64,000 nucleotides of DNA from Candidatus Laterigemmans baculatus. Its GTDB lineage: Bacteria > Planctomycetota > Planctomycetia > Pirellulales > Pirellulaceae. Below the pieces are notes generated by a model. That model ran no database searches. It was not told the origin of the DNA and saw only the letters and a program-made list of their open reading frames with translations. Numbering within the stretch: position 1 is the stretch's first letter; every line of letters begins with the position of its first letter. The position numbers were made by a program, and so were the translations under genes. Where the stretch lies: positions 1 through 64,000 of the forward strand of contig NZ_WRPR01000033.1 in the NCBI RefSeq assembly GCF_010367455.1, in the 5' to 3' direction. Positions 18,452 to 45,573 of this stretch are shown one piece after another.

Positions 18452-18576
18452 TCGGCGCAGACAAACCGGGAACGTGACAGGATCCACTTCCTGGGATCGG
18501 ACGTCCGGTTGCACCGATTTGAACGAATATGCGACTTCTTCCGGTTTTACCGGCCCTGGAGTCCGTCGGCGGCCGC

Positions 18577-19878: not shown

Positions 19879-19892
19879 AGCTCTTCCCTTCC

Positions 19893-21458: not shown

Positions 21459-21495
21459 AGTGGATCTCCTATCGCCACAACCAGACCGCCTCCTG

Positions 21496-21529
21496 CTCGC
21501 CGGGCAAACAAACTCGCCGGGCAAACAGT
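21496..21529. repeat. 17-bp tandem duplication
   Basis: CTCGCCGGGCAAACAAA is followed at once by a second copy of CTCGCCGGGCAAACA. It lies in the 5' leader of the adaptor gene. Confidence 0.8.
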
Positions 21530-23040: not shown

Positions 23041-23042
23041 CT

Positions 23043-24095: not shown

Positions 24096-24116
24096 CGTGA
24101 ATCTCCTTGGGAGGGA

Positions 24117-28026: not shown

Positions 28027-30351
28027 TCACTCGACCGCCGCAGTTTCTTCCGCGGCGGCCTCTTCCTCCGTGGGCGGGTCGTCCGAGACGAGCGGGTCGT
28101 GGGCGTTTGGCGGGGGCAAGAACCAGCGGCCGAGCGGACTGGCGAGCAGTGCCGGGAGCACGATCAGGTCGCCGACCGTCGCGATCATCAACAGCAGCAC
28201 GAGCATCCATGCGAAGCTCCGCGCCGGGAGGAAGTTGCTGGAGGTGAACGTCAGCATTCCGGCGGCACAGATCAGCGCGGTCTGCAGCAGGGCTCGACCG
28301 CAGTGTCGGTAGGTCTCGTGGATCGCGTAGATCGCTCCATGCCCGTGCAGCAGCTCCCGCTTGTAAGTCGCCAGGAAGTGGAACGTCCCGTCGACGGCGA
28401 TCCCCAGCGCCACGCTGGCGGTCATCAGCGATCCGATATCGACCGACCAACCCATCCAGCCCATCGAGCCAAACAAGATCAGCGGCGGAAAGATGTTGGG
28501 GATCATCGCCACGAGCGCCGCCCAGAGGCTGCGGAGGATGAAGACCATCACGCAGCTGACCAGCAGGATCGCGGTCAGGAAGCTGTTGAACAAGTCGGCC
28601 AGCAAGGCCCGCTGCACTTCGTAGACGGCTGAAGTGACACCGGTGTAGGTAATTTCGATCGACTCGGCTTCCGGCTCTTCCAGGAGCGGATCGATCCGCT
28701 CGCGGAGTCGGTCCAAGAATTGGCGGTAGTCGATATCGCCGCGGCCGGTAACCCGTCCGCTGACCCGCCACAGCTGCGCTTCGCCGTCGCTACGGATGTA
28801 GCCCGCCGCGGCGAGATCGCCGAGCCGATCGCGGAGCCGGCTTTCGTAGACGGCTCGTTGCGTGGTCGCTCGAAAGCCGCTTCCGCGGGGCAGCGGCGGC
28901 ATGAATGTGATCGCCGAGATCGCCCCTTCGACCAACTCGACTTGCCGCGCCTCGGCATGCACGCGAGTGACGAAGGCGGCTCGCTCGACCAGGTCGAGCG
29001 GATTGTCGCCGTCGAACCGCACGATGACTTCGACCGGGACCAGCGGCGTGACGTGCTCCTGGAACCAGTGGTGGTCTTCGACCGCGCGGGTCTCGGGCGA
29101 GAGCAGTGAGACGACATCCAGCGTCGTCGTCACCCGCGTTAGCCCCCAGCCGAACCCGATCAGGGCGAGCAAGGCGACCACCGTCAGCAGACCATTCCAG
29201 CGGCGCATCACCGCGGTCAGCAGCACCCATACGCTCTTGCCCCCGACTTTCTCCAATCGCCGCAGCGTAAAGCGACGCTTGCGGAGGAAGCGTTGAGCCC
29301 CGGGCCACCACTGCATCGCCCCGGGCAACAGCAAGAACAGCAGGACCATGGTCAGCAGAACGACAAACGCGCCGAGGACGCCGAATTGCCGCACCGGCTC
29401 GACGTCGCTGACCAGCAGCGAGCCCAAGCCGAAGGCCGTCGTCACCGCCGCGAGCATCCCGGGCCGCCAGCCTTTGGCCAGCGCGTGCGCCGTCGCCGTC
29501 CGCTTTCTGCCCTCGCGGAGCGCTTCGTAGTAGTAATTGACGAGGTGGATGCCCGCCGAGATCGTCAGCACGAAGACCAGCGGCGGCAATACGATCAGCA
29601 CCGCGTTCATCGTTGCACCGGAATAGTAGAGCGCGGCCAGGGCGACGCCTTGCCCGAGGGCGGCGACGGCGACGACCGGCAGCGTGAACCAGAGCGAGCG
29701 GAGGCACAGCCAGCACAGCAGGAACGAGAGCACCGCCGAGGGGACCGCGAAGGTCTGGATCGACTGGACGCTGAACAGGTCGATGGCCATTCCGTCGATC
29801 GGCGGCCCCGCCAAGCGATACTTGGCACGGGGCAAATTCACCGTGGCGTCGGCCGCCTTGAGGATGATCTGCAGGGCCTGCTCTCGCTGCTCGGCTCCGA
29901 GCGGCGTCAACTCGAACGCCGCGCAGGTGGTCTCTCCGTCGGGACCGATCAGCACGTTCTCCAGACGGCTGACCGCCGCCCGGCGGGGGATGCCGACCTC
30001 GGTCAACTCGCGAAGCGTCTCGTATCCGTTGGGAGTTCCCGCAAACAGCTCGGGTTCCCCCGCGGCCCAACGCTGCTGCCGAACCCGCTCGACTTCCTCG
30101 GCCAGTGCCTTCAGTCGCTCGTCGTCGATCGTACAGCCGGGCCAACTGATCAGGATCAGCTCGTGCACGTCGAACTGCTCGATGTACTCTCGGAAAGCCC
30201 GCAGCGAGTCGGACTCCGGTGGAATCCACCGCACCGGTGCGTTGAACATGCTCGCGATCGCACTTTGGGCGCCGTGCAGCACCAGCGGCAACGAGGCGGC
30301 CATTGCGAGCAGAGTGGCGAACGAGAGATAGGCGAGGAATTTTCGACGCAT
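28027..30351 (-). CDS. RND/MMPL superfamily exporter
   Basis: A 774-residue protein with two repeats of an RND-type core: a single helix, a periplasmic domain and a five-helix bundle each (helices about 10-30, 210-350, 400-420 and 590-740). Motifs of the sterol-sensing/MMPL type are seen in the bundles, such as SAGIHLVNYYYEALREGRK and the second-half SVALGIAVDGTFHFLATYKREL, a hallmark of hydrophobe exporters. A membrane transporter for lipids, hopanoids or drugs is the usual role; the substrate is unknown. It is leftward and alone, its start about 90 bases from the divergent epimerase gene. Confidence 0.85.
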   Translation of the reverse strand: MRRKFLAYLSFATLLAMAASLPLVLHGAQSAIASMFNAPVRWIPPESDSLRAFREYIEQFDVHELILISWPGCTIDDERLKALAEEVERVRQQRWAAGEPELFAGTPNGYETLRELTEVGIPRRAAVSRLENVLIGPDGETTCAAFELTPLGAEQREQALQIILKAADATVNLPRAKYRLAGPPIDGMAIDLFSVQSIQTFAVPSAVLSFLLCWLCLRSLWFTLPVVAVAALGQGVALAALYYSGATMNAVLIVLPPLVFVLTISAGIHLVNYYYEALREGRKRTATAHALAKGWRPGMLAAVTTAFGLGSLLVSDVEPVRQFGVLGAFVVLLTMVLLFLLLPGAMQWWPGAQRFLRKRRFTLRRLEKVGGKSVWVLLTAVMRRWNGLLTVVALLALIGFGWGLTRVTTTLDVVSLLSPETRAVEDHHWFQEHVTPLVPVEVIVRFDGDNPLDLVERAAFVTRVHAEARQVELVEGAISAITFMPPLPRGSGFRATTQRAVYESRLRDRLGDLAAAGYIRSDGEAQLWRVSGRVTGRGDIDYRQFLDRLRERIDPLLEEPEAESIEITYTGVTSAVYEVQRALLADLFNSFLTAILLVSCVMVFILRSLWAALVAMIPNIFPPLILFGSMGWMGWSVDIGSLMTASVALGIAVDGTFHFLATYKRELLHGHGAIYAIHETYRHCGRALLQTALICAAGMLTFTSSNFLPARSFAWMLVLLLMIATVGDLIVLPALLASPLGRWFLPPPNAHDPLVSDDPPTEEEAAAEETAAVE

Positions 30352-30440
30352 GGCGTAGCCAGGCTAGCGGCACAATCGAGGTGGTGGACAGTGCGAATTG
30401 TGGCAACTACCTTGGCTCGTCGAAAGTACAAGGGCCATCC

Positions 30441-31619
30441 ATGCGAATCGTGCGGTTCTCGATCTACCTCCTCCGGCTTCCCCTTCGCCACGAGATCAAG
30501 CACGCCTCGGCAGCCCGCAGCGACAGCGTCAACGTGCTGATCGCTTGCGACTTGGCCGACGGAACACGCGGCTGGGGCGAGGGCGTGCCGCGGTCCTACG
30601 TGACGGGCGAAACGCCTGTAGGGGTTGTTGAACAGCTGCGGGCAACCGATCTAGCCGCCCAGTGGAGCGACGACTGCGAATCCTGGCCGGACGTGATCGC
30701 GATGTGCGATCGCTTCGCGCCCGCGGCGGTTCGCGAGGATCCTCGCGGCTGTTATGGAAACGCCCTGCGATGCGCCGTCGAGCTCAGCGTGCTGGACGCG
30801 TTTGGCCAACGGTTCGGCGAGCCCGTGAGCCGCGTGACCGCCCACCTGGCATCGGCAGCAAATATCGCCACCACCCTTTCCACGGTTCGGTACTCGGGGG
30901 CCGTCACCGCCGCTTCGCCGCGCCGCGAAGCGACGAGCGCGGTAAAAATGCGGCTCTACGGCTTTCGCGACTGCAAGGTGAAGGTCGCGGTCGGGGGCGA
31001 CGAGGCGGCGCGGCTCCGACGTCTTCGCCGTTGGCTCGGCGGGCGAATGGTGATTCGGATCGACGCCAACGAAGGCTGGTCGGCCGACGTGGCGGCAAAG
31101 CAAATCGAGTCGCTCGCCCGCTACGGAATCGCCAGCGTCGAGCAGCCCGTGCGGCATGAAGAGGTCGACGCACTCGCCGAGATCCGCAAGCAAGTCGCCA
31201 CGCCGATCATGCTCGATGAATCGCTGACCGGAATGCAGGACGCCGAGCAGGCGGTGCGAACCCAGACCTGCGACTTGTTCAATATCCGCTTGTCGAAATG
31301 CGGAGGGTATCTCCACTCGCTCCGCTTAGCCGCCTATGCTCATCAGTCGGGCTTGGGCTACCAGCTCGGCTGCCACCCGGGCGAATCGCCGATCCTTTCG
31401 GCCGCCGGCCGTCATTGGGCCACGACCGTCCGCGATGTGAGGTTCCTGGAAGGCTCCTACGATCGCCACCTCCTGACGCGATTACTGACGCACGAAGACA
31501 TCACGTTTGGCTACGGAGGCCGCGCTGCGGCGCTGACTCGTCCGGGACTGGGCGTATCGGTCGATGCAAAAGCGCTCCGCGACTTGGCCGAGCCACAATC
31601 CGTGGTGGAGGTTTTGTAA
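30441..31619 (+). CDS. Enolase-superfamily racemase/epimerase (dipeptide epimerase-like)
   Basis: A 392-residue member of the muconate-lactonizing/dipeptide-epimerase group. Catalytic pair: Lys in KVKV (179-181) and Lys286 in RLSKCGGY. Metal ligands: Asp208 (RIDANEGWS), Glu234 (VEQPV) and Asp259 (LDESLTG). The N-terminal capping domain has KHASAARSDSVNV. Ala-Glu type dipeptide epimerisation is a guess from the KxK...D...E...D...K order; other racemase activities are possible. The frame opens far upstream at 30303, but ATG 30441 begins at the family's usual N terminus. It is followed without a gap by the alpha/beta hydrolase. Confidence 0.83.
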   Translation: MRIVRFSIYLLRLPLRHEIKHASAARSDSVNVLIACDLADGTRGWGEGVPRSYVTGETPVGVVEQLRATDLAAQWSDDCESWPDVIAMCDRFAPAAVREDPRGCYGNALRCAVELSVLDAFGQRFGEPVSRVTAHLASAANIATTLSTVRYSGAVTAASPRREATSAVKMRLYGFRDCKVKVAVGGDEAARLRRLRRWLGGRMVIRIDANEGWSADVAAKQIESLARYGIASVEQPVRHEEVDALAEIRKQVATPIMLDESLTGMQDAEQAVRTQTCDLFNIRLSKCGGYLHSLRLAAYAHQSGLGYQLGCHPGESPILSAAGRHWATTVRDVRFLEGSYDRHLLTRLLTHEDITFGYGGRAAALTRPGLGVSVDAKALRDLAEPQSVVEVL

Positions 31620-32465
31620 GTGCACTCCCCTGCCCCGCGGATCGAATCCTTCACCGCCACGGACGGCTACGCATTCGCATGCCGCCGCTGGGAGAGCGAT
31701 GCGCCGCGGGCAAACGTGGTGGTGCTGCACGGAATTATCAGCCACAGCGGATGGTATCTGAAAACCGGCGAGCATCTGGCCCAGGCCGGTTTCGCCGTCC
31801 ATGCCCTCGATCGCCGTGGCTCGGGATCGAATGGACAGGCCCGAGGGGATGTGGACCGTTATCCCACCTGGATCGCCGATGTCGAGCAGTACATCGAAGC
31901 GCTCGGGGACAACGTTCCGGTGCTGTTGGTGGGGATCAGCTGGGGTGGATTATTGGCGACCGCCGTGGCGCGGCGGCATCCCGAGCGGATCGCAGGGCTG
32001 GGGCTGATCTGTCCCGGTCTCTTCGCCCGAAAAGGGACCAGCGCGATTCAGTATTACGCCGTACGCACCGCCGCGCGGTGGGGGATGGCCAGCTGGCGGT
32101 TTCCGGTTCCCCTCCGCGATCCCCGGTTGTTCACCGACTCGCCCTCCTGGCAGGCCTTCATCCGCGACGATCCCGAGACGCTTCGCAAAGTGACGCTGCG
32201 ACTGGCCCGAGCGTCGGGCGAGTTGTACCTCGACACGGTTCGCGATCCCGAGTTGATCCGCGTGCCGACACTGCTGATGCTGGCTGGCAAGGACCCGATC
32301 ATCAAGAACGAGGAAGTCCGCGCCTTCGTCGAAAAGTTTTCCACGGGCCAGCAAACGATCCTCGAGTACCCCGAGGCGAGCCACACGCTGGAATTTGAAC
32401 CCGACCCGTCGAAGTATCTCAGCGATCTCGAAGCCTGGTGCCGAGCGGCAAGCGAGCGGCGTTAG
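31620..32465 (+). CDS. Alpha/beta hydrolase (serine aminopeptidase/lysophospholipase-like)
   Basis: A 281-residue hydrolase of the Hydrolase_4 (monoglyceride lipase-like) group. The oxyanion motif VVVLHGIISHSGWY is near residue 40, the nucleophile elbow VGISWGGLLA gives Ser107, and His255 is in EASHTLEF. There is no signal peptide. It starts with GTG directly after the TAA of the epimerase, so both are translationally coupled. Substrates could be lipid or peptide esters; the coupling to the epimerase suggests a cell-wall or peptide-fragment use, which is inference. Confidence 0.8.
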   Translation: MHSPAPRIESFTATDGYAFACRRWESDAPRANVVVLHGIISHSGWYLKTGEHLAQAGFAVHALDRRGSGSNGQARGDVDRYPTWIADVEQYIEALGDNVPVLLVGISWGGLLATAVARRHPERIAGLGLICPGLFARKGTSAIQYYAVRTAARWGMASWRFPVPLRDPRLFTDSPSWQAFIRDDPETLRKVTLRLARASGELYLDTVRDPELIRVPTLLMLAGKDPIIKNEEVRAFVEKFSTGQQTILEYPEASHTLEFEPDPSKYLSDLEAWCRAASERR

Positions 32466-32595: not shown

Positions 32596-34278
32596 CTAGG
32601 CCGTCGAGGCGGGGGCGGGTAGCTGGGTGATGAAATCCTGATCATTGGTCAAACAGGGATGCTTGAACTGTTCGACACTGGCTCCGCGACGCGTGAGTGC
32701 TCGCCGGTGAAAGGCTCGCCAAGTTCCCGCTGGTAGTCGGCGGACGACCACGGGATCGAGTCTCCGCGTCGCGACTCGGTTTTCATACTCGCAGTTGACT
32801 TCCGCCAGACGCCGATCGACCGCGGCGGCGAGCCTTTGTTCGGATGCGGTGTCCATCGTCGATTCGATCAACAACTCGTAGTGGGGCGGATCGCCAAAGA
32901 CGGGGGCGAGGGTGAAGTGTTCGATGCGTTGACCGAGTTCTTTGAGCGAGTCGCGAACCGCGGTCACGACCTGGTGCTCGCTGAGCTTCTCGCCGGTCAT
33001 GCTCGAGTAGTGGGCACCCTTATTGAGAAACTCCAGAATGGGTGCCTGACCTTCAAAGCCGACGCAGCGGACGACGTCGTGAATATCGTGACGCCACAGA
33101 GCGCTCGACGTGGACATCACGAGGTAATAGTTCTGGTCGCGCTCCAGTTCGTGAGCCTCGAGGATCGTGGGGTTCGCCGATTCATGTTCTGCCTCTGGAA
33201 TGAACTCAAAGTACTGACTGCCGACGTCGAGAACCCCGGCCGGTGAGTTCGCTTCGAGCGGGATCGTCATCCGGCCCTCGCTGGCCGAGAGCCCGTGGTC
33301 GCGAAACGTGACGTCGCCAAAATAATCTTGTACTTGAGGGAGGTAAGCGGCGACCGATCCACCGGTCCAAACAGCCAGCACCGCGAGTTGCTTCCAGTAA
33401 TCGCGCGGCCAGAGGTGGCCGGTTTGCTCGACGATCTTTTCGAGCGCTCGAGCCCGTTTGGGATGGGCCCGATCAAATTGTCGCTGGAGCCGTTTGCGGA
33501 CTTCCTCGGGGAGCTGGACGTTGCGGTCGAGAGTCCCGTCATGGATGTCGCGAATCAACGTATCGCGTCGCTCGTCTCCGAGCCGCGCCAGGCCGATCAG
33601 GGTGAGCGGGTTGGCGGTGATGAGGATGCCGACGTTTTCCACCGGCATCGCCAGACGCAGCGCCGTGTACTGCTTCGATTCGGCGTCGGGAATCTTGTTG
33701 AGCGCGGTCGGCAAGCAAAAGATGAGATCCGAAACGGCCGGGCGGGTTTCCGCGGCTAGCCCGCTGATGTTGCCACAGTAGAAACCGCCCTCGGTTCGCG
33801 TCTGCTGCCAATCGCTGCTGAACTGCAGCGTCTTGGTCCGCAGCAGTTCCGGGTGTTGGTGGTAGGTCCGCATGCCCCACACGTTCCAGCCCCGGCGATA
33901 CTCTTGGAAAAAGTGGTTGGTGATCGGGATGTACTTCGACTCGCTGGTCGTGCCCGAAGTCATTGCGAACATCAGGACTTTGGTGTCCGGACCGAACATG
34001 GCCCGGACGTCTCCCTGCTTCACGCGTTCCACGTACGGCCGAAAGTACTCGTAGTCGGTCAGCGGAACGTGGCGGCGGAAATCGGCGATCGTTCGGATTT
34101 GGTCAAACCGGTGGTCGCGACCAAAATCGCTGTCCATCTCGCGGCGAAGCTTGGAGAACAGCACCTCGCGCTGCAGTTCCGCCGCCCGCTTTGCGCTCGC
34201 TAAGAAGCGACGGACTTCGCGTTGGCGGAGACCGACGTAGGCTCGCAAACCGAGGGCGGTGCTGGTGGTTTTAAGCAT
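32596..34278 (-). CDS. GH3-family acyl-acid amido-synthetase homologue
   Basis: A 560-residue member of the GH3 (auxin-responsive promoter) family, an ANL-fold adenylating enzyme; plant members join acyl acids to amino acids through an acyl-adenylate. Adenylation-loop motif FAMTSGTTSESKYIPIT is at about residue 110, the SASEGRMTIPL element (aromatic-SEG) near residue 325, and LWRHDIHDVVRCVGF with EFLNKGAHYSSMTGEKLSE near the end (the family's nucleotide- and phosphate-contacting part). The length is normal. It starts 24 bases after the PKS stop, on the same strand, so it is the second gene of the PKS operon. The substrate pair is unknown; conjugation of the PKS product is inferred. Confidence 0.85.
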   Translation of the reverse strand: MLKTTSTALGLRAYVGLRQREVRRFLASAKRAAELQREVLFSKLRREMDSDFGRDHRFDQIRTIADFRRHVPLTDYEYFRPYVERVKQGDVRAMFGPDTKVLMFAMTSGTTSESKYIPITNHFFQEYRRGWNVWGMRTYHQHPELLRTKTLQFSSDWQQTRTEGGFYCGNISGLAAETRPAVSDLIFCLPTALNKIPDAESKQYTALRLAMPVENVGILITANPLTLIGLARLGDERRDTLIRDIHDGTLDRNVQLPEEVRKRLQRQFDRAHPKRARALEKIVEQTGHLWPRDYWKQLAVLAVWTGGSVAAYLPQVQDYFGDVTFRDHGLSASEGRMTIPLEANSPAGVLDVGSQYFEFIPEAEHESANPTILEAHELERDQNYYLVMSTSSALWRHDIHDVVRCVGFEGQAPILEFLNKGAHYSSMTGEKLSEHQVVTAVRDSLKELGQRIEHFTLAPVFGDPPHYELLIESTMDTASEQRLAAAVDRRLAEVNCEYENRVATRRLDPVVVRRLPAGTWRAFHRRALTRRGASVEQFKHPCLTNDQDFITQLPAPASTA

Positions 34279-34302: not shown

Positions 34303-37300
34303 CTAGAGGAGAACCGAGCGCGAGCTGTCGAGCGTATGCACATCGGCCGGAACGGTCGAGTCGAGGTGACGGCCAATCGTCTCGGCGAGCTGTTGCCCGT
34401 GCCGACCGGTCAGCATGCTGAAGTGGTCTCCACCGACCCGCTCGATTTCCAAATCTTCGCCGAGGATCGGACCCCAGCCGAGATCATCGCCCAAATGCCG
34501 GCCGGTGGCCAGGCTCAAGACGGCTGATTGCTTGGGGCGGTACATTCGAATCCGCTGTCCGAGCGGCTGCACTTGGTACGCCAGCGCCGCGCGGAGGTGG
34601 GCTCGGCAGAGTTCGATCCGTCGCTGCAGATCGCTCCGCGTCGTCCCCTCCGGAAGCACTCGCTGCTGTTTCATCTCCCGCAAAATCCGGTCCGTGGCTT
34701 GATCGGGTTGCATCGCCTTGAGCTCCGCATACTCGATCCGCATCTTGGCCCCGGAGAACCAGTTCGAGAAGTTGACCAAATCGTGCAGGAAGCGGGCATC
34801 GTCGCTGAGGTCGACCCCCTGCAGGATCTCCGACGTCGGCGTGTCGATGAACAACAATTCGACCGCGTGCCCCGCGGCCTTCAGCTGACGAGCGATCTCG
34901 TAGGCGAAGATCCCGCCGGTCGACCAACCGCTCAAGAGGTAGGGCCCCTGGGGCTGCGCGGAGCGGATCAGCTCGGCGTACTCCTCGGCCATCTCCTCGA
35001 CACTCTCGTGCGGCACCGTCCCGGCGTCGGCTCCGCGAGGACGGATCGTTGTCACACAGCGGCTGCGACCAAGGTGCTGGGCCAGATCGCGGTAGCAGCG
35101 GAGGTCGCCGCCGACCGGGTGCAGGCAGTACAGGGCCGGAAGTGCCGCTTGCGTCTGCAGCGGCACGAGCGAAGAGCCCCCCTTCGAAGTGGAAACCGAG
35201 GCCGTCGATCCGGGTGCGTCGTCGTCCAACGCCTCTCCGAGCCCTTCGCCGGTCAGCGAGGCGAGCATCGTGCCGGTGATCGAGGCAATGCTCGGACGCT
35301 CCATCAGCGCCGCCATCGGCAGCTCGATGTCGAGCTGGGCTTCGAGGTTCGTCTTCAGCTCCATCGCCATCAGCGAGTCGACTCCGACCACATTCAGCAG
35401 CTGTTCGGGATCGAGATCCGCGGGGTCCATTCCCATGATCCGGGCCAGCTCGGCAGTCAAATAATTCTGCAACAGCGGTTGCTGCTCCTCCGCCGCGGTC
35501 GCAGCGAACCGGCCGAGGAATTCGCGATCGACCTTCCCCGGGTCGCCCGCCGCGGCTGGGTCTTCCCACTGCGAGGCAAAGGCTTCGAAGAGCGGTGGGC
35601 GGCGGCGCGGGAACTGACGCGCCAGAGCCGACCAATCGACGTCCATCACGGCCAGCTGAACCGGAGCCGACTCGGATTCCTTGAGCAGTCGGTCGAGAAT
35701 CGAGAGGCACGCCTCCGGGTCGAGCAGCCGCATCCCGCGATCGCTCAATTGGCTATCGGGGTCGGCGGTCACGGCCATGCCCCCTTCGGCCCACGGACCC
35801 CAGTTGATCGCGGTCGCGGGCAAGCCGCGCGACCGCCGCAGGGCAGCCAGCCCGTCCAGGAACGCGTTCCCCGCAGCGTAATTCGCTTGCCCCGGTGAAC
35901 CCAGCACCGCGGCGATCGAAGAGAACAGCACAAAGAAGTCGAGCGGCTGAGTCTGCGAGAGCGCGTGCAGGTTCCAGGCTCCCTGCACCTTCGGCCGCAA
36001 CGCCCGCTCGAGTTGCTCGAGCGACATGTCGTACAGCAATCCGTCGGCGAGCGCACCGGCGGCGTGGAGGATCCCGCCGAGCGGTGGGAAGTCGGCTGGA
36101 ATCTGAGCCAGTGCGCCTTCGAGCGATTTGCGGTCCGCCACGTCCGCCTGCAGGCACGCCACCCGCGTTCCCGGCGGCAACTCGGCCAACCGTCGCTGCT
36201 GGTCGTCGCTCGGCGAGCGGCGGGAGAGGAGCAGCAGGTGGCGCGCTCCCTGCTCGGCCAACCACTGGGCCAACCGCAACCCGAGGGCTCCGAGACCGCC
36301 GGTGATCAGATAGCTCGCTTCGGCATGGATCGTCGGCTTCCGCTCGCAAACCGCCGCGGCGGGGCGGTCCTGCGGCGAGAGCGAGACGACTACTTTGCCA
36401 ATGTTCTTCCGCTGGGCCATGTAGCGGAAAGCGGTCGCGGTCTCGGGGGCCGCAAACGTCTTGTGCGGCAGCGGACGATAAACCCCCTGCTCGAACAACT
36501 CCATCACTTCGCTGAACAGCCGGCGGATGTCGTCGGGTCGCTGGCGCAGCATTCGGTCGAGATCGATCGCCGAATAAGAAAGATTGTCTTGGAACGGCGC
36601 CAGCCCAATCATCCGGTCCTGATAAATGTCGGTCTTACCGATTTCCAGAAAACGCCCGTAGGCCGCCAGAATCGAGAGGCTCTTGGGAATCACATCGCCC
36701 GGGAGCGAATTGAGGACGACGTCGACGCCGTAGCGATCGGTCGCGTGGAGAATTTGATCGGCGAATTCGAGAGTGCGGGAATTGAAGACGTGGGACACGC
36801 CGAGCGAGGCGAGGAACTCCCGCTTCTCATCGCTGCCGGCGGTCGCGAACACTTCGGCACCGACGTGCTCGGCAATCTGAATCGCCGCTTGGCCCACTCC
36901 GCCGGCCGCGGCGTGGATCAAGACGCGTTCGCCTCGCCCGAGCCGGCCCAACCAGCGAAGTGCGTAATGGGCCGTCAGGAACGTGATCGGAATCGTGCTC
37001 GCCTCGTCGTGCGAAAGCGATGCGGGTTTGCGGGCGAGCGCGTACTCGGCGGTCACCGCATGGCTGGCAAAACTCGACGGCGCGACACCCATGACTTCGT
37101 CGCCCACGCGAAAGCGAGTGACCTCCGAGCCGACGGCCGTGACCACCCCGGAGCACTCGATCCCAAGCGGCGGTTCCTGATCGGTCAATCCCGGGTAGAG
37201 CCCCATCGCTTTGAGTACGTCGCTGAAATTCAAACCGGCACTGTGGACCTCAATCGCGACTTGATCGGGAGCGAGCTTGGGAAGTTCGAACGACGCGTAG

Positions 37301-40300
37301 GCCAAGGCATCGAAGCTGCCCGCTTCCCGCGAGCGAAGCCGGAACGGCGCGGCGGGCAGTCGCAGTTCACGTCGCTTCCCACCCTCGGCATCTTCGCCGC
37401 TGGCGGCGTCACCGAAGCGGGCTTTCACCAAGCGGGCGGCATAGCGGATCGCGTCCTGAGTTTCCGTCGCCCGGAACGCCACCTGGTCCTCTTGCTCTCC
37501 CTGCTCCTTCGCCGAAACTTGCCTGGTCGCTGCGGCAACGAGTTCGCCGAGCAGCCCCGCGGCCCCCTCGGCGTCGCTGGCCTGTGGATCGAGGTCGATC
37601 AACCGAACGCCGCCCCCCACCGACTCGAGCGCGGCGGTGCGGCCCATGCCCCACACGGCCGCTTGCAGCGGATCCACCTCGGTCGCGAGAGTCTCCTCTG
37701 CGGCCTGATTGGTGACTTGTTCTGCAACCTGTTTTGGCGAGATCGCCTGGAAACCTTGGGTGCAGAGCCAAATCGGTGGCGGTGAGCGGAACGGGCCGCG
37801 GACGGTTTGCCGAAGGAGCTGCATCGCTCCCCCCAGCACCCGCCGCGAAGCCTGCTCCAAGTCGTCGCCGTGGGAGCCGCCGCGAGAATCGCCGTGGAAA
37901 TCGCCGAGGCTCGCCAGGTGCACGATCCCCGACCACGACGCCGACGAGGCTTCCGAGGCCGCTGCGGTTTCGAACGCTCGTGCGTAGTCGTCGCTCGAGA
38001 GCGGATCGATTTCGAACGTATCGTCATCGAGCTGCGCAAACCGGTCCGCCGAGCGGAGCAGCACGCAGCGGCCACCCTGGTGGCGAATCGCAGCGGCCAA
38101 TTCCGTCGCTACGCTCGAGCGAGAGGGAGCCGTCACGATCCAGCGTTGGCCCGCGCACCGCTGGCCCGCGCCCGGCTGGGGCTCGGCGAGCGTCGACTCG
38201 GGCGACTCGAGGGGGGCTTCCTGCCAATCGAGCTGGTAGAGCCACTCGGCCGCGTCTCGGGTTCGCGGGGCGGTCGCGCCGAGCGACTGGACGCGGACCT
38301 GCTCGAGTTCGGCCAGCACGTGACCGTCGGCGTCGAGCAACGTCACGTCGCCGTGGAGCGTCTCGAGCGGAGAATTGTCAGCCGAGTCACTGCGCCGCAC
38401 CTCGATACGGGCCGCCCGCAGCGGATCACCGAGCAAGCGGAAGCGGCCGATCGCGGTCGGCAGGTAGAGGCGATTCGAGGGAGTGCCATCGGCGGCCAGC
38501 GGAACGAGGCCGGCCATCGCCTGCAGGCAGCCGTCGAGGATCGCCGGGTGGATCCGATGCTGCGAGCTCTCCTGGCGGACGCTTTCGGTCATTTGCAGTT
38601 CGGCGACCGCGCCATCGTCGCCGCGGCGGAGCTCGTCAATCACGCGGAACCGGGGGCCATAATCGAGTCCGCACTGCCGCATCCGCTCGTAGAACTGCTC
38701 GCCGCTGATCACCATCGGGTACCGCGTGCTCGAGGCGTGACCGTTGGTTCCCGCGAACCCCGTCGTGTGCAAGCTCTGAGTGGCGGTCGCGGCGGCGCTC
38801 GCGGGAGAGGCGCCGGACGATCCGCGGGCCAGTTTCCCGTAGGCGTGCATCGTCCACGCGTCGCGGTCGTTCGACTCGGCCGGTCGGCTGTGAATGCGGA
38901 ACGAGCAGCTTTCGGTGGGCTCCTCCGACGTGGTGAACTGGACGTGCCGCGAGGCGTCGGTCGGCAAGAACATGGCTTGCTGGATCGAGACGTCGCTGAC
39001 CGTGTGCGTGCCGGCGCCGAAGAGGGCATCGGCAGCGGCGAGAGCTTGCTCGAGATAGGCCGCCGCGGGAGTGACGGCGGAGCCTTGGACGCGGTGCTCG
39101 CTCAGGTACCCCGGGGCGTGCTCCTCAAGAAGGGTTTCAAACAGCCGGGTCTTGAAGGTTGTGGCGACTTCCGCGCCGAGCAGCGGATGCAGCCCGGAGC
39201 GGGACCGCGAGTCGCCGCGCGCGGTGGAATTGGGGCCGAGTCCACCGAGCCCGCGGCACTGGCCCGCTTCGTCGTACCAATGCCGCTTGCGTTCGAAGCG
39301 ATATCCGGGGAGCACCAGCTTGGCGGGAGCCGGACTGCCATAGATCTGCGACCAGCGGATGTTGGCACCGCGGCTGTAGAGCTCGGCGAGGCTGCCGGTG
39401 AGTACCTGCCAATCTCCCTGGCCGGCTCGCAGCGACGGCAGCCAGCCGGTCGTGGGGCGGTCGATGAATTGGCGGCCCATCGCCAGCAGCGTCGGCGAAG
39501 GTCCCGCCTCGAGCACGAAGTCCGGTTCGGTTTCGAGGAGCGTTCGCATTCCTTGCTCGAACCGCACGCTGCGGCGGAGGTGCTCCCGCCAGTAGCGACC
39601 GTCGGGCGGTTGTTGCAGCCAGTCGCCGGTGAGGTTCGAGACCACTGGCACTCGCGGCGAACGGGCGGGGATCGCTGCGGCAAAACGCTCGAAGTCGTCG
39701 AGCACCGCGTCCATCAAGTGCGAATGGAAGGCGTGGGAGACGGGCAGGAATTTCGCCTTGAGCCCCTCCGCGTTGCATCGCTCGACGAATCGTTCGACAG
39801 CCCCGCGGTCGCCGGAGACGACGGTGTTTGCCGGCCCATTGAAGGCGGCGATCTCGATCGACTCGGCTTCGCCCGGGCCACTCTTGCTCCGCCCGTTCTC
39901 GAGCTGCCGAGGGGCCGTGGCGGCGCCGTTGATTTGGCCATTGGTCCGCGTGGGGCCGGCTCCGGCGATTCTCGCTTCGGCCAACATCCGCTCGACCGTC
40001 TCACCCGACGCGGCCACCGCCGCCATCGCGCCATCACCCGAGCAGTCCTGCATCAGGCGAGCCCGCTCGGCGATCAACCGCAGCCCATCTTCGAGCGTGT
40101 AGACATCGGCCAGCGTCGCGGCCACAAACTCGCCGACGCTGTGACCGAGCAGGGCCGACGGCTCGATTCCCCATGACCGCCAAAGCTGAGCCAGCGAGTA
40201 TTCGATGGCGAACAGCGCGGGCTGGGTGTAGAGCGTTTGATGGATCCGCTCGTCGTCCTCGCCCGCGTGCATGATCTCCAGGATCGATGCCCCCAGCGGT

Positions 40301-42096
40301 TCGCGAAGCAGCGCGTCGCAGCGCTCGAGCGTGTGGCGAAAGAAGGGCTGGGTCGCGAACAGCTCCCGCCCCATTCCCAGGTACTGCCCACCCTGGCCGG
40401 TGAACACGAACGCAACTTTCGGTGCGCGAAATCCGCGGCGGTGCCGAGCCTCGTCCGCTTCATCTACTCTCGACTCGGCCAATTCCCGCAGCTTGTGGAG
40501 CATCCGCGGAGGATCGGCGGCGGCGACCGTCACTCCGTAGTGGAAATGGTTGCGGCCGCTGTTGGCTGAAAAGCAGAAGGCGTCGAGGTCGGCGTTGGGG
40601 TGCTGCTCGAGATAGTCGGCGTACTGCTCGGCGATTCGCTGGAGGGCCGAAGGCGTTTTGGCCGAGACGGCGAGCAACTTGACGGGCGGCGTCGCGGGGA
40701 GCGGAGCGGGCTCGGGCAGCGTGGCCTGTTCGAGCACCATGTGGGCGTTGGTCCCACCGAAGCCGAAGCTGCTGATGCCAGCTCGCCGCGGTCCGCCGGC
40801 CGAGTGCCAAGGCATCCGCTCTTGCGCGATCCGCAACCGCCCCTTTCCGAGCGTGATGTGCGGGTTCAGCTCGGCGAAGTCGGCCTGCGGAGCGAGTTCG
40901 CCAGCCTGCATCATCAGCACAACTTTGATCACGCTGGCGATGCCCGCAGCCGTTTCGAGGTGGCCGATGTTGGCTTTGACCGAGGAAAGGTAGCACGGTT
41001 GGCTGCTGCTCGGTCCTTCGTAAACTTGCCGCAGCGCCTCGAGCTCGATCGGGTCACCGAGCGGCGTCCCGGTGCCGTGAGCTTCGACGTACGAGACCGC
41101 GTCGGGATCGAGCCCCGCTTGCCGGAGCGCGGCTTGGATCACCGCGACCTGCGACTGGCTGTTCGGCGCGGAGATTCCCGAAGTCCGTCCGTCCTGATTG
41201 ACTGCCGTTCCGCGGATCGTCGCCAAAATTCGGTCGCCATCGGCAACCGCATCGCTCAATCGCTTGAGCACCACCACTCCGGCTCCCTCGCCACGAACGT
41301 ACCCATTGGCTCGCGAGTCGAAGGGGCGGCAGTGGCCGTCGGGAGAAAGCATCCCCGCCTTGGAAAACGCCAACGTCGCTTCCGGCGATAGCATCAAATT
41401 GACGCCGCCAGCGACCGCCAAGTTGGCTTCGCCGTTCTGCAGATTTTTGACCGCCAGGTGAAGCGCCACCAAGGCCGACGAGCAGGCGGTATCGACGCTC
41501 ATGCTCGGCCCATGCCAGTCGAAAAAGTAGCTCATCCGGTTGGCCGCGATGCTCAGCGCGTTGCCGGTTCCCGAATGGACGTCGATCTGGCCGTAGTAGT
41601 CGTCGAAGTGGAAGGGAACTTTGGCGTAATCGGCCGCACCGATGCCGACGAACACGCCGGTGGTCGAGCCGGCCAATCGCTCGGGTGCCAGCCCGGCGTG
41701 CTCCAAGGCTTGCCAGGTGACCTCCAAAAGCAACCGCTGCTGGGGGTCCATCTTGGCCGCTTCGCGAGGCGAGATCCCAAAGAAATGGGCGTCGAACTGG
41801 TCGATCGCGTCGAGAAAACCGCCGAAACGACCGCACCGGGCCGCCTGCTCGGAGCTTCCGGCGGCCGCAGCGACCTGCTCCGCGTCCCATCGCTCGGCGG
41901 GAAGCTCGCCGATCGCCCGCCGCCCGGCGGAGATCAACTCCCAGTACGATGCGAGGTCCGCCGCCCCCGGAAAACGGCAGCCGAGACCAATAATCGCCAC
42001 CGGTTCGGCGACCGGAGCGGTTTCCTCGAGTTGACGCTGGAGCAGTTGCAGTCGGTGCGGTGAAAGTCGCGCGAGGCGTTGGGCCAAATCGATCAC
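34303..42096 (-). CDS. Type I polyketide synthase, KS-AT-DH-ER-KR-ACP-TE
   Basis: A 2597-residue one-module, fully reducing PKS. KS: DTACSSALVALH (Cys about 204), EAHGTGTPLGDP (His about 339), KANIGHLE. AT: GHSVGEFVAA (Ser about 652) and HAFHS (about 788), the pattern for malonyl-CoA. DH: HRVQGSAVTP (about 1000) and DGCLQ (about 1188), both catalytic motifs intact. ER: NADPH-binding HAAAGGVGQAAIQ (about 1732). KR: TGGLGALGL (about 1933) with an active-site SS...Y in FSSIAAVLGSPGQANYAAGN; the LxD motif at HAAGALADG suggests B-type. ACP: GVDSLMAMEL (Ser about 2240). TE: SGWSTGGIFA (Ser about 2390), GGDHFSML (His about 2557). About 35 residues are inserted in the AT. The start is GTG 42096; the upstream gap is a divergent promoter region shared with the FAAL gene. 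Confidence 0.95.
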   Translation of the reverse strand: MIDLAQRLARLSPHRLQLLQRQLEETAPVAEPVAIIGLGCRFPGAADLASYWELISAGRRAIGELPAERWDAEQVAAAAGSSEQAARCGRFGGFLDAIDQFDAHFFGISPREAAKMDPQQRLLLEVTWQALEHAGLAPERLAGSTTGVFVGIGAADYAKVPFHFDDYYGQIDVHSGTGNALSIAANRMSYFFDWHGPSMSVDTACSSALVALHLAVKNLQNGEANLAVAGGVNLMLSPEATLAFSKAGMLSPDGHCRPFDSRANGYVRGEGAGVVVLKRLSDAVADGDRILATIRGTAVNQDGRTSGISAPNSQSQVAVIQAALRQAGLDPDAVSYVEAHGTGTPLGDPIELEALRQVYEGPSSSQPCYLSSVKANIGHLETAAGIASVIKVVLMMQAGELAPQADFAELNPHITLGKGRLRIAQERMPWHSAGGPRRAGISSFGFGGTNAHMVLEQATLPEPAPLPATPPVKLLAVSAKTPSALQRIAEQYADYLEQHPNADLDAFCFSANSGRNHFHYGVTVAAADPPRMLHKLRELAESRVDEADEARHRRGFRAPKVAFVFTGQGGQYLGMGRELFATQPFFRHTLERCDALLREPLGASILEIMHAGEDDERIHQTLYTQPALFAIEYSLAQLWRSWGIEPSALLGHSVGEFVAATLADVYTLEDGLRLIAERARLMQDCSGDGAMAAVAASGETVERMLAEARIAGAGPTRTNGQINGAATAPRQLENGRSKSGPGEAESIEIAAFNGPANTVVSGDRGAVERFVERCNAEGLKAKFLPVSHAFHSHLMDAVLDDFERFAAAIPARSPRVPVVSNLTGDWLQQPPDGRYWREHLRRSVRFEQGMRTLLETEPDFVLEAGPSPTLLAMGRQFIDRPTTGWLPSLRAGQGDWQVLTGSLAELYSRGANIRWSQIYGSPAPAKLVLPGYRFERKRHWYDEAGQCRGLGGLGPNSTARGDSRSRSGLHPLLGAEVATTFKTRLFETLLEEHAPGYLSEHRVQGSAVTPAAAYLEQALAAADALFGAGTHTVSDVSIQQAMFLPTDASRHVQFTTSEEPTESCSFRIHSRPAESNDRDAWTMHAYGKLARGSSGASPASAAATATQSLHTTGFAGTNGHASSTRYPMVISGEQFYERMRQCGLDYGPRFRVIDELRRGDDGAVAELQMTESVRQESSQHRIHPAILDGCLQAMAGLVPLAADGTPSNRLYLPTAIGRFRLLGDPLRAARIEVRRSDSADNSPLETLHGDVTLLDADGHVLAELEQVRVQSLGATAPRTRDAAEWLYQLDWQEAPLESPESTLAEPQPGAGQRCAGQRWIVTAPSRSSVATELAAAIRHQGGRCVLLRSADRFAQLDDDTFEIDPLSSDDYARAFETAAASEASSASWSGIVHLASLGDFHGDSRGGSHGDDLEQASRRVLGGAMQLLRQTVRGPFRSPPPIWLCTQGFQAISPKQVAEQVTNQAAEETLATEVDPLQAAVWGMGRTAALESVGGGVRLIDLDPQASDAEGAAGLLGELVAAATRQVSAKEQGEQEDQVAFRATETQDAIRYAARLVKARFGDAASGEDAEGGKRRELRLPAAPFRLRSREAGSFDALAYASFELPKLAPDQVAIEVHSAGLNFSDVLKAMGLYPGLTDQEPPLGIECSGVVTAVGSEVTRFRVGDEVMGVAPSSFASHAVTAEYALARKPASLSHDEASTIPITFLTAHYALRWLGRLGRGERVLIHAAAGGVGQAAIQIAEHVGAEVFATAGSDEKREFLASLGVSHVFNSRTLEFADQILHATDRYGVDVVLNSLPGDVIPKSLSILAAYGRFLEIGKTDIYQDRMIGLAPFQDNLSYSAIDLDRMLRQRPDDIRRLFSEVMELFEQGVYRPLPHKTFAAPETATAFRYMAQRKNIGKVVVSLSPQDRPAAAVCERKPTIHAEASYLITGGLGALGLRLAQWLAEQGARHLLLLSRRSPSDDQQRRLAELPPGTRVACLQADVADRKSLEGALAQIPADFPPLGGILHAAGALADGLLYDMSLEQLERALRPKVQGAWNLHALSQTQPLDFFVLFSSIAAVLGSPGQANYAAGNAFLDGLAALRRSRGLPATAINWGPWAEGGMAVTADPDSQLSDRGMRLLDPEACLSILDRLLKESESAPVQLAVMDVDWSALARQFPRRRPPLFEAFASQWEDPAAAGDPGKVDREFLGRFAATAAEEQQPLLQNYLTAELARIMGMDPADLDPEQLLNVVGVDSLMAMELKTNLEAQLDIELPMAALMERPSIASITGTMLASLTGEGLGEALDDDAPGSTASVSTSKGGSSLVPLQTQAALPALYCLHPVGGDLRCYRDLAQHLGRSRCVTTIRPRGADAGTVPHESVEEMAEEYAELIRSAQPQGPYLLSGWSTGGIFAYEIARQLKAAGHAVELLFIDTPTSEILQGVDLSDDARFLHDLVNFSNWFSGAKMRIEYAELKAMQPDQATDRILREMKQQRVLPEGTTRSDLQRRIELCRAHLRAALAYQVQPLGQRIRMYRPKQSAVLSLATGRHLGDDLGWGPILGEDLEIERVGGDHFSMLTGRHGQQLAETIGRHLDSTVPADVHTLDSSRSVLL

Positions 42097-42182: not shown

Positions 42183-42289
42183 CGGATCAGGCAGAACGTT
42201 CCACGCGGCGCGGATTGCCGGCCCCAGTAGCGGGGGCTAAGATCGGATCCAAAACACTATACGCGTTTCAACCGGTTGTATTGAAGTCG

Positions 42290-44644
42290 ATGGCGTCCAC
42301 TGAGTTCTCCCCGCCCCGCCCCGCCGATGCCCGTTCGATCGGCGACATTATCGATTATTGGGATCAGCTGCATGCGGGACACCCGGCGCTGATTTTTTTG
42401 GACGACGAGCAGGGGGAACGCGTCACCACCTATGGCGAGCTGAAACGGCAAGCGATCGCGCTGGCCGCCGAGCTGCGGGAGGTGTGTCAGCCGGGCGACC
42501 GTGCCATCTTAATCTTCCCTCCTGGCAAGGAATTTGTCACCGCGTTTCTCGGCTGCTTGTACGCCGGTGTGTTGGCCGTTCCGGCGACCGAGCCCAAACC
42601 GCGCCGCCCGAACGACCGGCTCTCGGCGGTCGCTGAGGATTGCGATCCCCGAGCCGTGCTCTGCAAGCGCGAGATGCTCGAGCGGATCGAGATTGCCGTC
42701 GTCTGCCCGCGATTGGCCGAAGTCCAGTGGATCCATGTCGACGAACCGGCCGCCTCGGCCCAAAGCCCTTCGGACGCTCTACCCACCAGCGAAGCCGTGC
42801 AGGGGCTCCCGGCGCTCGAACCCTCATCACTGGCGTTCCTGCAGTACACCTCGGGCTCGACGAGCGATCCCAAGGGAGTGGCGATCTCGCACGGCAACTT
42901 GCTGCACAATTTGGAGATGATCCGCCACGGGTTTGGACGCCACTTTAACTTCGACTCCGACCCCAAGATGCTCGGCGTTTTCTGGCTGCCGCCGCATCAC
43001 GACATGGGATTGATCGGCGGCATTCTGACTCCGCTGTACCTCGGCGGCACGACAGTGGTGATGTCGCCGGCGAGCTTCCTCAAGCGGCCGCTCAAATGGC
43101 TCGAAGCGATCTCGCAGTATCGAGGCTTGATCTCCGGGGCCCCGAACTTCGCCTACGAGCTGTGCGTCCAGCAGCTTCGCAAGTCGCCCCCCGCGGAGCT
43201 CGATCTCTCCTGCTGGGACATTGCTTTCTGCGGAGCCGAACCGATCCGGGCCGCGACGATCGACCGCTTCTGCGAAGCCTTTGAGCCGTACGGTTTCCGC
43301 CGCGACTCGTTTTATCCCTGCTACGGCATGGCTGAAGCGACGCTGCTGGTCAGCGGCAACATCGGGCGGCGCGCTCCGACGATCAAAACCGTCGACAGCG
43401 AGGCGCTGCAGAATCATCGCGTCCGCGCGCCGGCGGCCGAAGAAACTGGCGGCGGGGAGGCACGCGGCGAAGCGGCTGGGGGCGGGGAACCGCAAACGGG
43501 TGCGGCGCGGGGCGTCGCCCGGTTGGTCGGCTGCGGCGGACCGATGCTGAGCGGGGAGTTGTTGATCGTCGATCCGGCCACTCGGATGCCCGCGGCGGCC
43601 GATGAAGTTGGCGAGATCTGGTACCGCAGCGAGAGCGTCGCGCTCGGCTACTGGAATCGACCGGAGCTTTCTCAAAAAGCATTCCGCGCTCCGCTGGCCA
43701 GCGGCGAGGCGGGGCTCTACCTCCGCACTGGAGACATGGGGTTTTTCGAGGACGGCCAGCTGTACGTGACGGGGCGGCTCAAGGAGATGTTGGTCATCCG
43801 CGGCCGCAATCTCTATCCCCAGGATCTCGAAGCGACCGCCACGGCCGCCGATCCGGCCCTCCCGAGCTCGTCCGCCGCGGCCTTCTCGGTGGAGATCGAT
43901 GGGGCGGAACAGTTGGTGCTCGCCCAGGAGCTCGATCGCAACCAGAAGGAGAGCAATTACGACGAAGTGATTCGGCGGCTTCGCAATGCGCTGATCCAAA
44001 CCTACGACGTCAGTCCCGCCGCCGTGCTGCTCGTCCGCCCGTTCAGTCTGCCGCGGACGACGAGCGGCAAAATGCAGCGGATCCTCTGTCGTCAGCTGTA
44101 CCTCGAAGGCCAGCTCAAAGTGCTTGCCGAGTGGAAAGCGGCACCGCGGCCCGCGGCCGAATCGATTCCCGAGCCGAAGCCGGATCTGGCGGTCTTCCCG
44201 GCCGGGGCGAACGCCTCCGAGGGAGCGCTCGAAATCAAACTCAGCCACCTGGCCGAGGAGATCGAGCAGTGGCTGCTCTCGTGGCTCGGAAGGCACGGAA
44301 CGGTCAGCGGCGATGAGGTCGCGCCGGACCGGCCGCTCGCCGATTTCGGGCTCGACTCGCTGACCGCCGTGGAGCTCGCGACGCAGATCGAGGAGCGGTA
44401 CGACCTGACGCTCAATCCGATCATCGTCTGGAATTACCCAACGCCCCGCCATCTGGCTCGCTATCTAGCCGGCCAAATCGACGAGGGGTTCCAGGCGGCG
44501 GTCCCGCAGGGCCCCTCGGGTCGAATCGGTTCGCGGTTCGAAGCGATGCTGCGGGAAGTCGAGGAGCTCGACGAGCGGGAGGTTCTGCGGCGGATCGGCC
44601 ACGGCGCCGCGGCGGCCGAGGCTTCGCACCCGCAGCAGGCATGA
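42290..44644 (+). CDS. Fatty-acyl-AMP ligase fused to acyl carrier protein
   Basis: A 784-residue protein. Residues about 1-630 are an ANL adenylating domain of the FAAL type: LQYTSGSTSDPKGVAISHGN (P-loop, about 187), FWLPPHHDMGLIGG, YGMAEATLL, and YLRTGDMGFFEDGQLYVTGR followed by LKEMLVIRGRNLYPQDLE. A short low-complexity Gly/Glu-rich loop sits near residue 385. FAALs activate fatty acids as adenylates and pass them to an ACP, not CoA. The C-terminal ACP has DFGLDSLTAVELA with Ser690 as the phosphopantetheine site. ATG 42290 starts the family N terminus; there is no strong Shine-Dalgarno. It is divergent from the PKS and overlaps the SBF gene by four bases. Confidence 0.92.
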   Translation: MASTEFSPPRPADARSIGDIIDYWDQLHAGHPALIFLDDEQGERVTTYGELKRQAIALAAELREVCQPGDRAILIFPPGKEFVTAFLGCLYAGVLAVPATEPKPRRPNDRLSAVAEDCDPRAVLCKREMLERIEIAVVCPRLAEVQWIHVDEPAASAQSPSDALPTSEAVQGLPALEPSSLAFLQYTSGSTSDPKGVAISHGNLLHNLEMIRHGFGRHFNFDSDPKMLGVFWLPPHHDMGLIGGILTPLYLGGTTVVMSPASFLKRPLKWLEAISQYRGLISGAPNFAYELCVQQLRKSPPAELDLSCWDIAFCGAEPIRAATIDRFCEAFEPYGFRRDSFYPCYGMAEATLLVSGNIGRRAPTIKTVDSEALQNHRVRAPAAEETGGGEARGEAAGGGEPQTGAARGVARLVGCGGPMLSGELLIVDPATRMPAAADEVGEIWYRSESVALGYWNRPELSQKAFRAPLASGEAGLYLRTGDMGFFEDGQLYVTGRLKEMLVIRGRNLYPQDLEATATAADPALPSSSAAAFSVEIDGAEQLVLAQELDRNQKESNYDEVIRRLRNALIQTYDVSPAAVLLVRPFSLPRTTSGKMQRILCRQLYLEGQLKVLAEWKAAPRPAAESIPEPKPDLAVFPAGANASEGALEIKLSHLAEEIEQWLLSWLGRHGTVSGDEVAPDRPLADFGLDSLTAVELATQIEERYDLTLNPIIVWNYPTPRHLARYLAGQIDEGFQAAVPQGPSGRIGSRFEAMLREVEELDEREVLRRIGHGAAAAEASHPQQA

Positions 44645-45573
44645 GCGCGGGCTCCTTGTTCGAGGCGTTTCTCCGCATCGAAGGGATCCTCGCGGCGCTG
44701 CAGCTCGTGCTGGCGATGCTCGGCATGGGAGCGACGCTCGAGCTGGACGATTTCCGCCAGATCGCTCGCCATTACCGTGCGATCGGCTTGGTACTGGTCG
44801 CCCAGTTCCTGCTCGGGCCGCTGGCGGCCGTTGCCGCCGGAGCGTGGCTGCCGTTGCCCGAAGGTGTCGTGCTCGGCGTGATTCTGCTCGCCGTGATGCC
44901 GAGCGGCGCGATGTCGAACATCTTTGCCCATCTCGGTAACGGCAACCTTCCGCTGTCGATTACCGCCACGGTGGCTTCGACGCTGACGTGTTTGGTCTTC
45001 ACGCCGCTGCTGTTGGGCGTGATCGTCGAGGCGGCGATCCCGGCGGGCTTTCAGATGCCCACCGGGCGGATCGTTCGCGACGTCGCTCTTTTTCTGCTCT
45101 TGCCGCTGCTGGGCGGGATGTGGGTCCGCCGCCGCTCGCCGCGAAGCTCGCTCCGCTTCGCCCGGTGGACGGTTCGCTCGAGTTTGGCGGTCTTGGCGGT
45201 GATCGTCGTCGGCTCGCTCGGCAGCGGACGGATCGACGTCTGGAGCTATGGTTGGACGGTGCCGGTGATTTTGGTCGGGTTCGTGTTTGTGCAGTTCGTC
45301 GCCGCGCGGCTTCTGACGCTCGCCTTCCGCTACTCGGCCCGCGATTCATACACCTTGGCGATCGAGGTGGCGCTGCGAAACGGGAACCTGGCGATCCTGC
45401 TCAGCAGCACGCTGTTTGCCGGAGCGATGGCTGGTGCTTCGGCCGAAAAAGCGGAAGACCTGGGAGCCGGTGCACTCTACGTGGCGCTCTTTTACGGCGG
45501 GGCTTCGCTCGGGATGGCGATCCTCGCCGTGATGGTCGAGCGGTACTGGGAGCGGCGACAACTCACTCGATGA
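44641..45573 (+). CDS. SBF/bile-acid:Na+ symporter family transporter
   Basis: A 310-residue protein with about nine to ten membrane helices. The SBF fold is supported by LAMLGMGATLELDDFRQI and LAVMPSGAMSNIFAHLGNGN (the conserved substrate/cation region with NGN-like turn) in the N-terminal half, and AIEVALRNGNLAILL in the C-terminal half. SBF proteins move bile acids, pantoate or other organic anions. Here it overlaps the FAAL-ACP stop by four bases (ATGA), so it is very probably translated with it and may carry a precursor or product of the cluster. Confidence 0.85.
   Translation: MSAGSLFEAFLRIEGILAALQLVLAMLGMGATLELDDFRQIARHYRAIGLVLVAQFLLGPLAAVAAGAWLPLPEGVVLGVILLAVMPSGAMSNIFAHLGNGNLPLSITATVASTLTCLVFTPLLLGVIVEAAIPAGFQMPTGRIVRDVALFLLLPLLGGMWVRRRSPRSSLRFARWTVRSSLAVLAVIVVGSLGSGRIDVWSYGWTVPVILVGFVFVQFVAARLLTLAFRYSARDSYTLAIEVALRNGNLAILLSSTLFAGAMAGASAEKAEDLGAGALYVALFYGGASLGMAILAVMVERYWERRQLTR

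Follow-up and report, generated by a model that had tools for sequence, protein, structure and literature searches.

A planctomycete GH3 protein, its racemase-like enolase and hydrolase partners, and a candidate aminolipid pathway

Described systems related to the GH3 locus

In mycobacterial lipid clusters a fatty-acyl-AMP ligase (FAAL) loads a fully reducing polyketide synthase (PKS) of the iterative type, and the lipid is exported by an MMPL transporter. The GH3 proteins of plants (JAR1, GH3.5, GH3.12 and GH3.15) act on hormone substrates. A bacterial GH3 protein, OlsH of the planctomycete Singulisphaera acidiphila, was described in 2025 (JBC): it makes N-acyl-ornithine from free fatty acid, ATP and ornithine, depends on a serine of motif I (S115), and works beside an alpha/beta-hydrolase (PMC12493201). 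Its characterization makes out of date the view, expressed in an earlier sequence-only reading of the DNA analysed here, that bacterial GH3s are mostly unassigned. Deletion of olsH alone removes the ornithine lipid of S. acidiphila. The other known route to N-acyl amino acids in planctomycetes, stieleriacine biosynthesis, uses NasY, and the paper describing it presumes acyl-ACP donors and names neither a GH3 nor an enolase.

We examined a stretch of 64,000 nucleotides from Candidatus Laterigemmans baculatus (the window). As in the mycobacterial clusters, a FAAL here appears to feed a fully reducing, iterative-type PKS, with an MMPL protein as candidate exporter; the locus differs from them in the presence of a thioesterase (TE), in an apparently malonyl-type acyltransferase (AT) domain, and in having GH3 in place of the acyltransferase. 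It resembles the OlsH/OlsI pathway in combining a planctomycete GH3, which would likewise use free fatty acid and ATP, with an alpha/beta-hydrolase, but the olsHGI operon contains no enolase, PKS or FAAL, and the window hydrolase is not OlsI-like. With the stieleriacine route it would share N-acyl amino acids as products, differing in the presumed acyl donor and in its GH3 and enolase.

GH3 and its neighbors in the window

The only GH3 gene of the genome lies at 32596-34278 on the reverse strand; the coordinates are exact, and the open reading frame starts with ATG and encodes a full-length GH3 acyl-acid amido synthetase-like protein of 560 amino acids. It matches the N-terminal (PF03321, 228 bits), middle (PF23571, 69 bits) and C-terminal (PF23572, 79 bits) Pfam domains of the family, the cut-offs being 23.6. 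The AF2 model (mean pLDDT 89.6) aligns over its full length to plant GH3.15 (TM 0.84, rmsd 2.9), all of the top 30 structure matches are plant GH3s, and sequence comparison also retrieves solved plant GH3s. Against most other plant GH3s the TM is about 0.66, a gap that we read as a shift of the small C-terminal domain. Residues S108-G-T-T, K115, E334 (followed by G), R396, D401 and the C-terminal K539 are invariant among 43 planctomycete homologues, and S115 of OlsH aligns with S108. The sequence-only reading, which had named the protein a GH3 with intact adenylation motifs and proposed a structural comparison with plant GH3s, is borne out on these points, with the qualification that the wording of motif III is atypical: ALWRHDIHD or a close form is found in the window GH3 and its two nearest relatives, GLYRYDIHD in most others. 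This motif also sets it apart from the plant GH3s, which resemble it from end to end in fold and adenylation motifs at about 20% identity, their hormone substrates contrasting with the fatty-chain context here. Going by the family, ATP-dependent adenylation followed by amide formation is quite likely the activity of this protein, and amide formation in particular can be soundly inferred.

Directly upstream on the same strand, 24 bp away, lies a single-module, fully reducing type I PKS (34303..42096), for which Pfam matches and motifs give the order KS-AT-DH-ER-KR-ACP-TE. The motifs are DTACSS in KS, GHSVG and HAFH in AT, HxxxGxxxxP in DH, HAAAGGVG in ER, YAAGN in KR, GVDSL in ACP and GWSTGG in TE; HAFH marks the AT as a predicted malonyl-type domain. 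The TE (residues 2321-2576; 34369..35136, reverse strand) matches PF00975 with 101.8 bits over positions 2-224 of 226 and has its nucleophile elbow GWSTGG at residue 2390, in agreement with the earlier statement that GH3 follows a PKS equipped with a TE. Divergent from the PKS is a FAAL with a C-terminal ACP (42215..44644, forward strand; AMP-binding and PP-binding Pfam domains). Among solved structures it comes closest to FAALs (7r7e, E 7e-151; 3kxw; FadD23; FadD32), its orthologue adjoins the PKS in several relatives, and it is the probable loader of the PKS starter. The domain motifs lead us to expect that FAAL and PKS together make a saturated, linear long-chain acid, which the TE would set free. 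The end of the FAAL gene is overlapped by that of an SBF-family transporter (44641..45573, forward strand; SBF 105 bits), a possible accessory with a counterpart (57% identity) beside the FAAL of one relative.

Just downstream of GH3 and convergent with it are two functionally linked genes, for an enolase-superfamily protein and an alpha/beta-hydrolase, neither of which the sequence-only reading had picked up, followed by an MMPL/HAE3-type RND transporter (28027..30351, reverse strand). The latter matches MMPL with 105 bits as well as HAE3 and HpnN-like models, is a candidate lipid exporter, and is kept in the GH3 cluster of close relatives. A promoter and terminator scan of the window yielded nothing above shuffled expectation, and the viral contigs compared gave no match. 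Elsewhere in the window, OEP, MacB-type permease and HlyD-type genes that share a strand (15467-21524) make up a tripartite efflux system, which was not seen near GH3 in relatives. Consecutive genes for an MFS transporter, a TauD-type dioxygenase and an aldo-keto reductase (21733-25127, reverse strand) are not conserved with the GH3 cluster.

The enolase (30441..31619, forward strand; MR_MLE_C 154 bits) has an alternative upstream TTG start at 30303 in the list of open reading frames. Numbered on the translation of 30438-31619, its catalytic set K180-x-K182, D209, E235, D260 and K287 is invariant, including in copies unlinked to GH3, and comprises the two catalytic lysines (KxK and the C-terminal K) and the D/E/D metal ligands of the MLE subgroup. 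Both sequence and structure point first to 2p88, an N-succinyl-Arg/Lys racemase (Z 45.8); dipeptide epimerases come next by sequence, and MLE, OSBS and NAAAR structures score close behind 2p88. All named racemase and epimerase models stay below their cut-offs (DgcA 86 of 400 bits, Ala-Glu epimerase 76 of 500), and since every equivalog cut-off is missed we call the protein N-acylamino-acid racemase/dipeptide-epimerase-like rather than a member of any of them. It has the fold and the K-x-K/D/E/D/K set of 2p88 and of the dipeptide epimerases 3jva, 1jpm and 3q45, but only about 25% identity to them, a different strand 7-8 motif (LGCHPGES ... LEGSYD) and a tie to GH3. Enolases of the MLE subgroup also catalyze dehydration (OSBS) and cycloisomerization (MLE), and because several folds give similar Z an OSBS reading retains some plausibility. 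Among the candidate activities, racemization or epimerization of the conjugate or of its partner comes out as the likeliest, with a chance that we put at about even.

The hydrolase gene (31620..32465, forward strand) begins directly after the enolase stop codon without a gap. Its product is monoacylglycerol-lipase-like (Hydrolase_4 157 bits; GISWG elbow), and monoacylglycerol lipases are its nearest solved structures. We considered and rejected OlsI as its identity: only 34 amino acids around the nucleophile elbow align to the OlsI candidate, and the OlsI model scores 23 bits against 385.

Distribution and conserved partners of GH3

Among 396 genomes of the same order as the window genome, 22 genomes from 13 genera carry GH3 orthologues (48-72% identity), other GH3s there being only 25-32% identical. 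A scan of named genomes returned 296 GH3 relatives, of which 76 were kept, all of them planctomycetes wherever the organism is given; they include Rhodopirellula, Aeoliella, Paludisphaera, Schlesneria and Singulisphaera acidiphila. The tree shows a supported planctomycete clade that divides broadly between Pirellulales, mostly of the PKS type, Isosphaeraceae with their allies, mostly of the type-II KS type, and Planctomycetales, mostly solitary; a distant GH3 lineage stands apart. Because GH3 stands alone in Planctomycetales, the clade is older than its link with the PKS, and the natural acid of GH3 may therefore not be the PKS product. This second GH3 lineage of the same order (25-31% identity) occurs in a trio with a GNAT protein (369 aa) and a protein of about 250 aa that has no Pfam match, in the order GNAT, this protein, GH3, at 12/12 loci inspected (L019:8558-12338; L020:7376-10893; L076:11917-15530; L022; L077-L083); at some of them (G025, G044) the trio is accompanied by several more genes, each encoding about 455-490 aa. 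In genomes of the Rhodopirellula type GH3 is present twice, the copies being separated by 5-8 kb (L101, L103, L051, L055-L056), one adjoining a PKS and the other an ATP-grasp ligase; the copies have diverged, each being about 50% identical to the window GH3.

A search of the 396 genomes with the window enolase (E below 1e-40) picks out exactly those 22 that carry GH3. The two genes are far apart in two of these genomes (0.55 Mb in G041 and 0.9 Mb in G367) and on separate contigs in two more (G382, G224), while in G337 the enolase contig also carries a GH3 end fragment. In genus g61, G219 alone has both genes, and neither is present in the other members of the genus that are listed. The chance of an identical set of 22 genomes is 1 in C(396,22), about 1e-36, or 1e-18 by genus, values that overstate the strength of the association because relatedness is ignored. 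We also took 23 further planctomycete GH3 genomes, picked for the apparent lack of an enolase in the neighborhood of GH3, and in 23/23 it is encoded elsewhere, so that GH3 and enolase occur together in 45/45 planctomycete genomes checked for both. The hydrolase is present in 22/22 genomes with the GH3 clade and 0/22 without. Unbiased clustering of neighbors is likewise headed by the enolase, at 26 loci, and the hydrolase, at 23, and the genome-wide profiling is the stronger evidence that these two are the constant partners of GH3. In the papers searched we found no GH3-enolase pair, and a GH3-racemase pairing would be the first of its kind among them.

Other genes accompany GH3 less strictly. 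An ATP-grasp ligase is encoded in 19/22 genomes of the GH3 clade against 0/22 others. An OleD-like SDR (148 bits against the OleD cut-off of 580) has strong orthologues in 20/22 GH3-positive genomes; we treat it as accessory because weak homologues occur everywhere else and the copy in the window genome is only 38% identical. A ketopantoate-reductase-like gene adjoins GH3 in many relatives and was not found in the window genome. On another contig of that genome, a second locus (L172:8323-14496, contig C34) holds an SDR, the OleD-like SDR, a desaturase-like protein near GntB-type hydroxylase models, and the ATP-grasp ligase. It mirrors Lacipirellulaceae clusters, in which an uninterrupted row of genes encodes desaturase, ATP-grasp, SDR, GH3, enolase and hydrolase, and probably belongs to the GH3 pathway.

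The association of GH3 with PKS/FAAL genes across genomes, which the sequence-only reading had suggested counting, holds up: a PKS, accompanied by a FAAL or not, is found no more than about 18 kb away at 14/19 Pirellulales loci of the same clade with enough flanking sequence, against 0/12 loci of the other GH3 lineage of the order (Fisher p 9e-5, relatedness ignored). The idea of the PKS as the defining partner is nevertheless not supported; enolase and hydrolase are constant, and the PKS counts among several acyl sources that replace one another. In Isosphaeraceae it is replaced by a type-II KS/dehydratase/ACP set, and S. acidiphila and its allies encode a FabA-like dehydratase, an ACP, a second dehydratase, two KS and an alpha/beta-hydrolase ahead of GH3. 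The acyl context in Lacipirellulaceae is a desaturase-like gene, and in G020 a diverged GH3 (29%) has genes for a fatty-acid hydroxylase and an enolase as its neighbors. Both PKS and type-II KS sets come with a TE or hydrolase next to GH3. Since unrelated chain builders converge on a core of GH3, enolase and hydrolase, the acid would be a fatty chain and the core would make or edit the head group; this convergence is the best indirect evidence for such a division, and a long-chain acid is probably the GH3 substrate. In a genome of the same family as the window genome, a set with low GC3 (L018:6017-10088) combines a fatty-acid hydroxylase, GH3 (28%) and enolase (31%) and may represent a form of the pair acquired by horizontal transfer.

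A putative aminolipid pathway and its alternatives

Gene content, intact active sites, folds and the strict co-occurrence of GH3, enolase and hydrolase suggest the following pathway, in which adenylation and amide formation by GH3 and proton transfer by the enolase are the activities expected from their families. The FAAL-ACP would load a fatty acid, the malonyl-specific, fully reducing PKS would extend it, and its TE would release a free long-chain acid. GH3 would activate the acid as acyl-AMP and then use it to acylate the amino group of an amino acid or comparable amine. The MLE-subgroup enolase would then move the alpha-carbon proton of the N-acyl amino acid, giving the other stereoisomer, or would act instead on a dipeptide made with the ATP-grasp ligase. 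Finally, the hydrolase may act on the conjugate as an esterase or O-acyltransferase, and the MMPL transporter may export it. That GH3 couples the released acid to an amine, probably an amino acid, with epimerization by the enolase and finishing by the hydrolase, has in our estimate an even chance of being correct. The wider proposal is more tentative: a phylum-wide planctomycete aminolipid pathway in which GH3 uses dedicated long-chain acids to N-acylate amino acids and an obligate enolase epimerizes them to give a D-configured or inverted amino acid head group.

The enolase could instead be a dehydratase or cycloisomerase that makes a small acid or the amine for GH3, the long-chain PKS product going elsewhere. 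OSBS and MLE belong to the same subgroup and their folds score nearly as high as the racemase; furthermore, plant GH3.12 takes small aromatic acids, and chain builders are absent from the surroundings of solitary GH3 loci. We regard this as unlikely given that the top match of the enolase is an N-succinyl amino acid racemase, followed by dipeptide epimerases, and that GH3 repeatedly adjoins fatty-chain genes of unrelated kinds. Alternatively, GH3 might pass the PKS acid to an acceptor other than an amino acid (CoA, ACP, an alcohol or a beta-lactone), with the enolase on a separate head-group branch together with the OleD-like SDR and the ATP-grasp ligase. The permissive adenylating-enzyme fold and the similarity of the partner SDR to OleD, below cut-off as it is, are consistent with this, but every GH3 mentioned here whose chemistry is assigned makes an amide with an amino acid, and a substrate shared by GH3 and enolase would better explain why they pair so strictly, so we consider such an acceptor rather improbable.

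It is very doubtful that the window GH3 is another OlsH-type N-acyl-ornithine synthetase for ornithine lipid, with the hydrolase in the role of OlsI. The two GH3s have the same fold family, OlsH too is found beside an alpha/beta-hydrolase (PMC12493201), and the OlsH and OlsI models give weak matches. Against this, identity to OlsH (Sinac_1599) is 27%, the OlsH model NF052613 reaches 111 bits of a cut-off of 620, and the score and short alignment of the hydrolase to OlsI are given above. The neighbors are a PKS, an enolase and a monoacylglycerol-lipase-like hydrolase rather than OlsG and OlsI, and the olsHGI operon is without the enolase. S. acidiphila encodes both OlsH and a window-type GH3, and because the olsH deletion alone abolishes its ornithine lipid, the second GH3 is not the maker of that lipid under the conditions tested; we rejected OlsH as the identity of the window protein. 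An accidental adjacency of PKS and GH3 fits the relatives that keep GH3 without a PKS, but is scarcely credible in view of the 24-bp spacing on one strand and the locus counts given above.

The pathway of acid coupling, epimerization and hydrolase finishing remains our preferred reading. Bacterial GH3s number in the thousands, and we found one published function. In the genomes tested, this GH3 is always accompanied by a racemase-like enolase and one hydrolase, across three acyl-chain contexts, which describes a tightly defined pathway. The window-type gene is present at 7.80 Mb in S. acidiphila, where deletion genetics works. If the proposal is true, a class of lipids would be identified in a phylum whose membranes are unusual, GH3 chemistry would extend to long-chain acids, and the enolase superfamily to lipid substrates.
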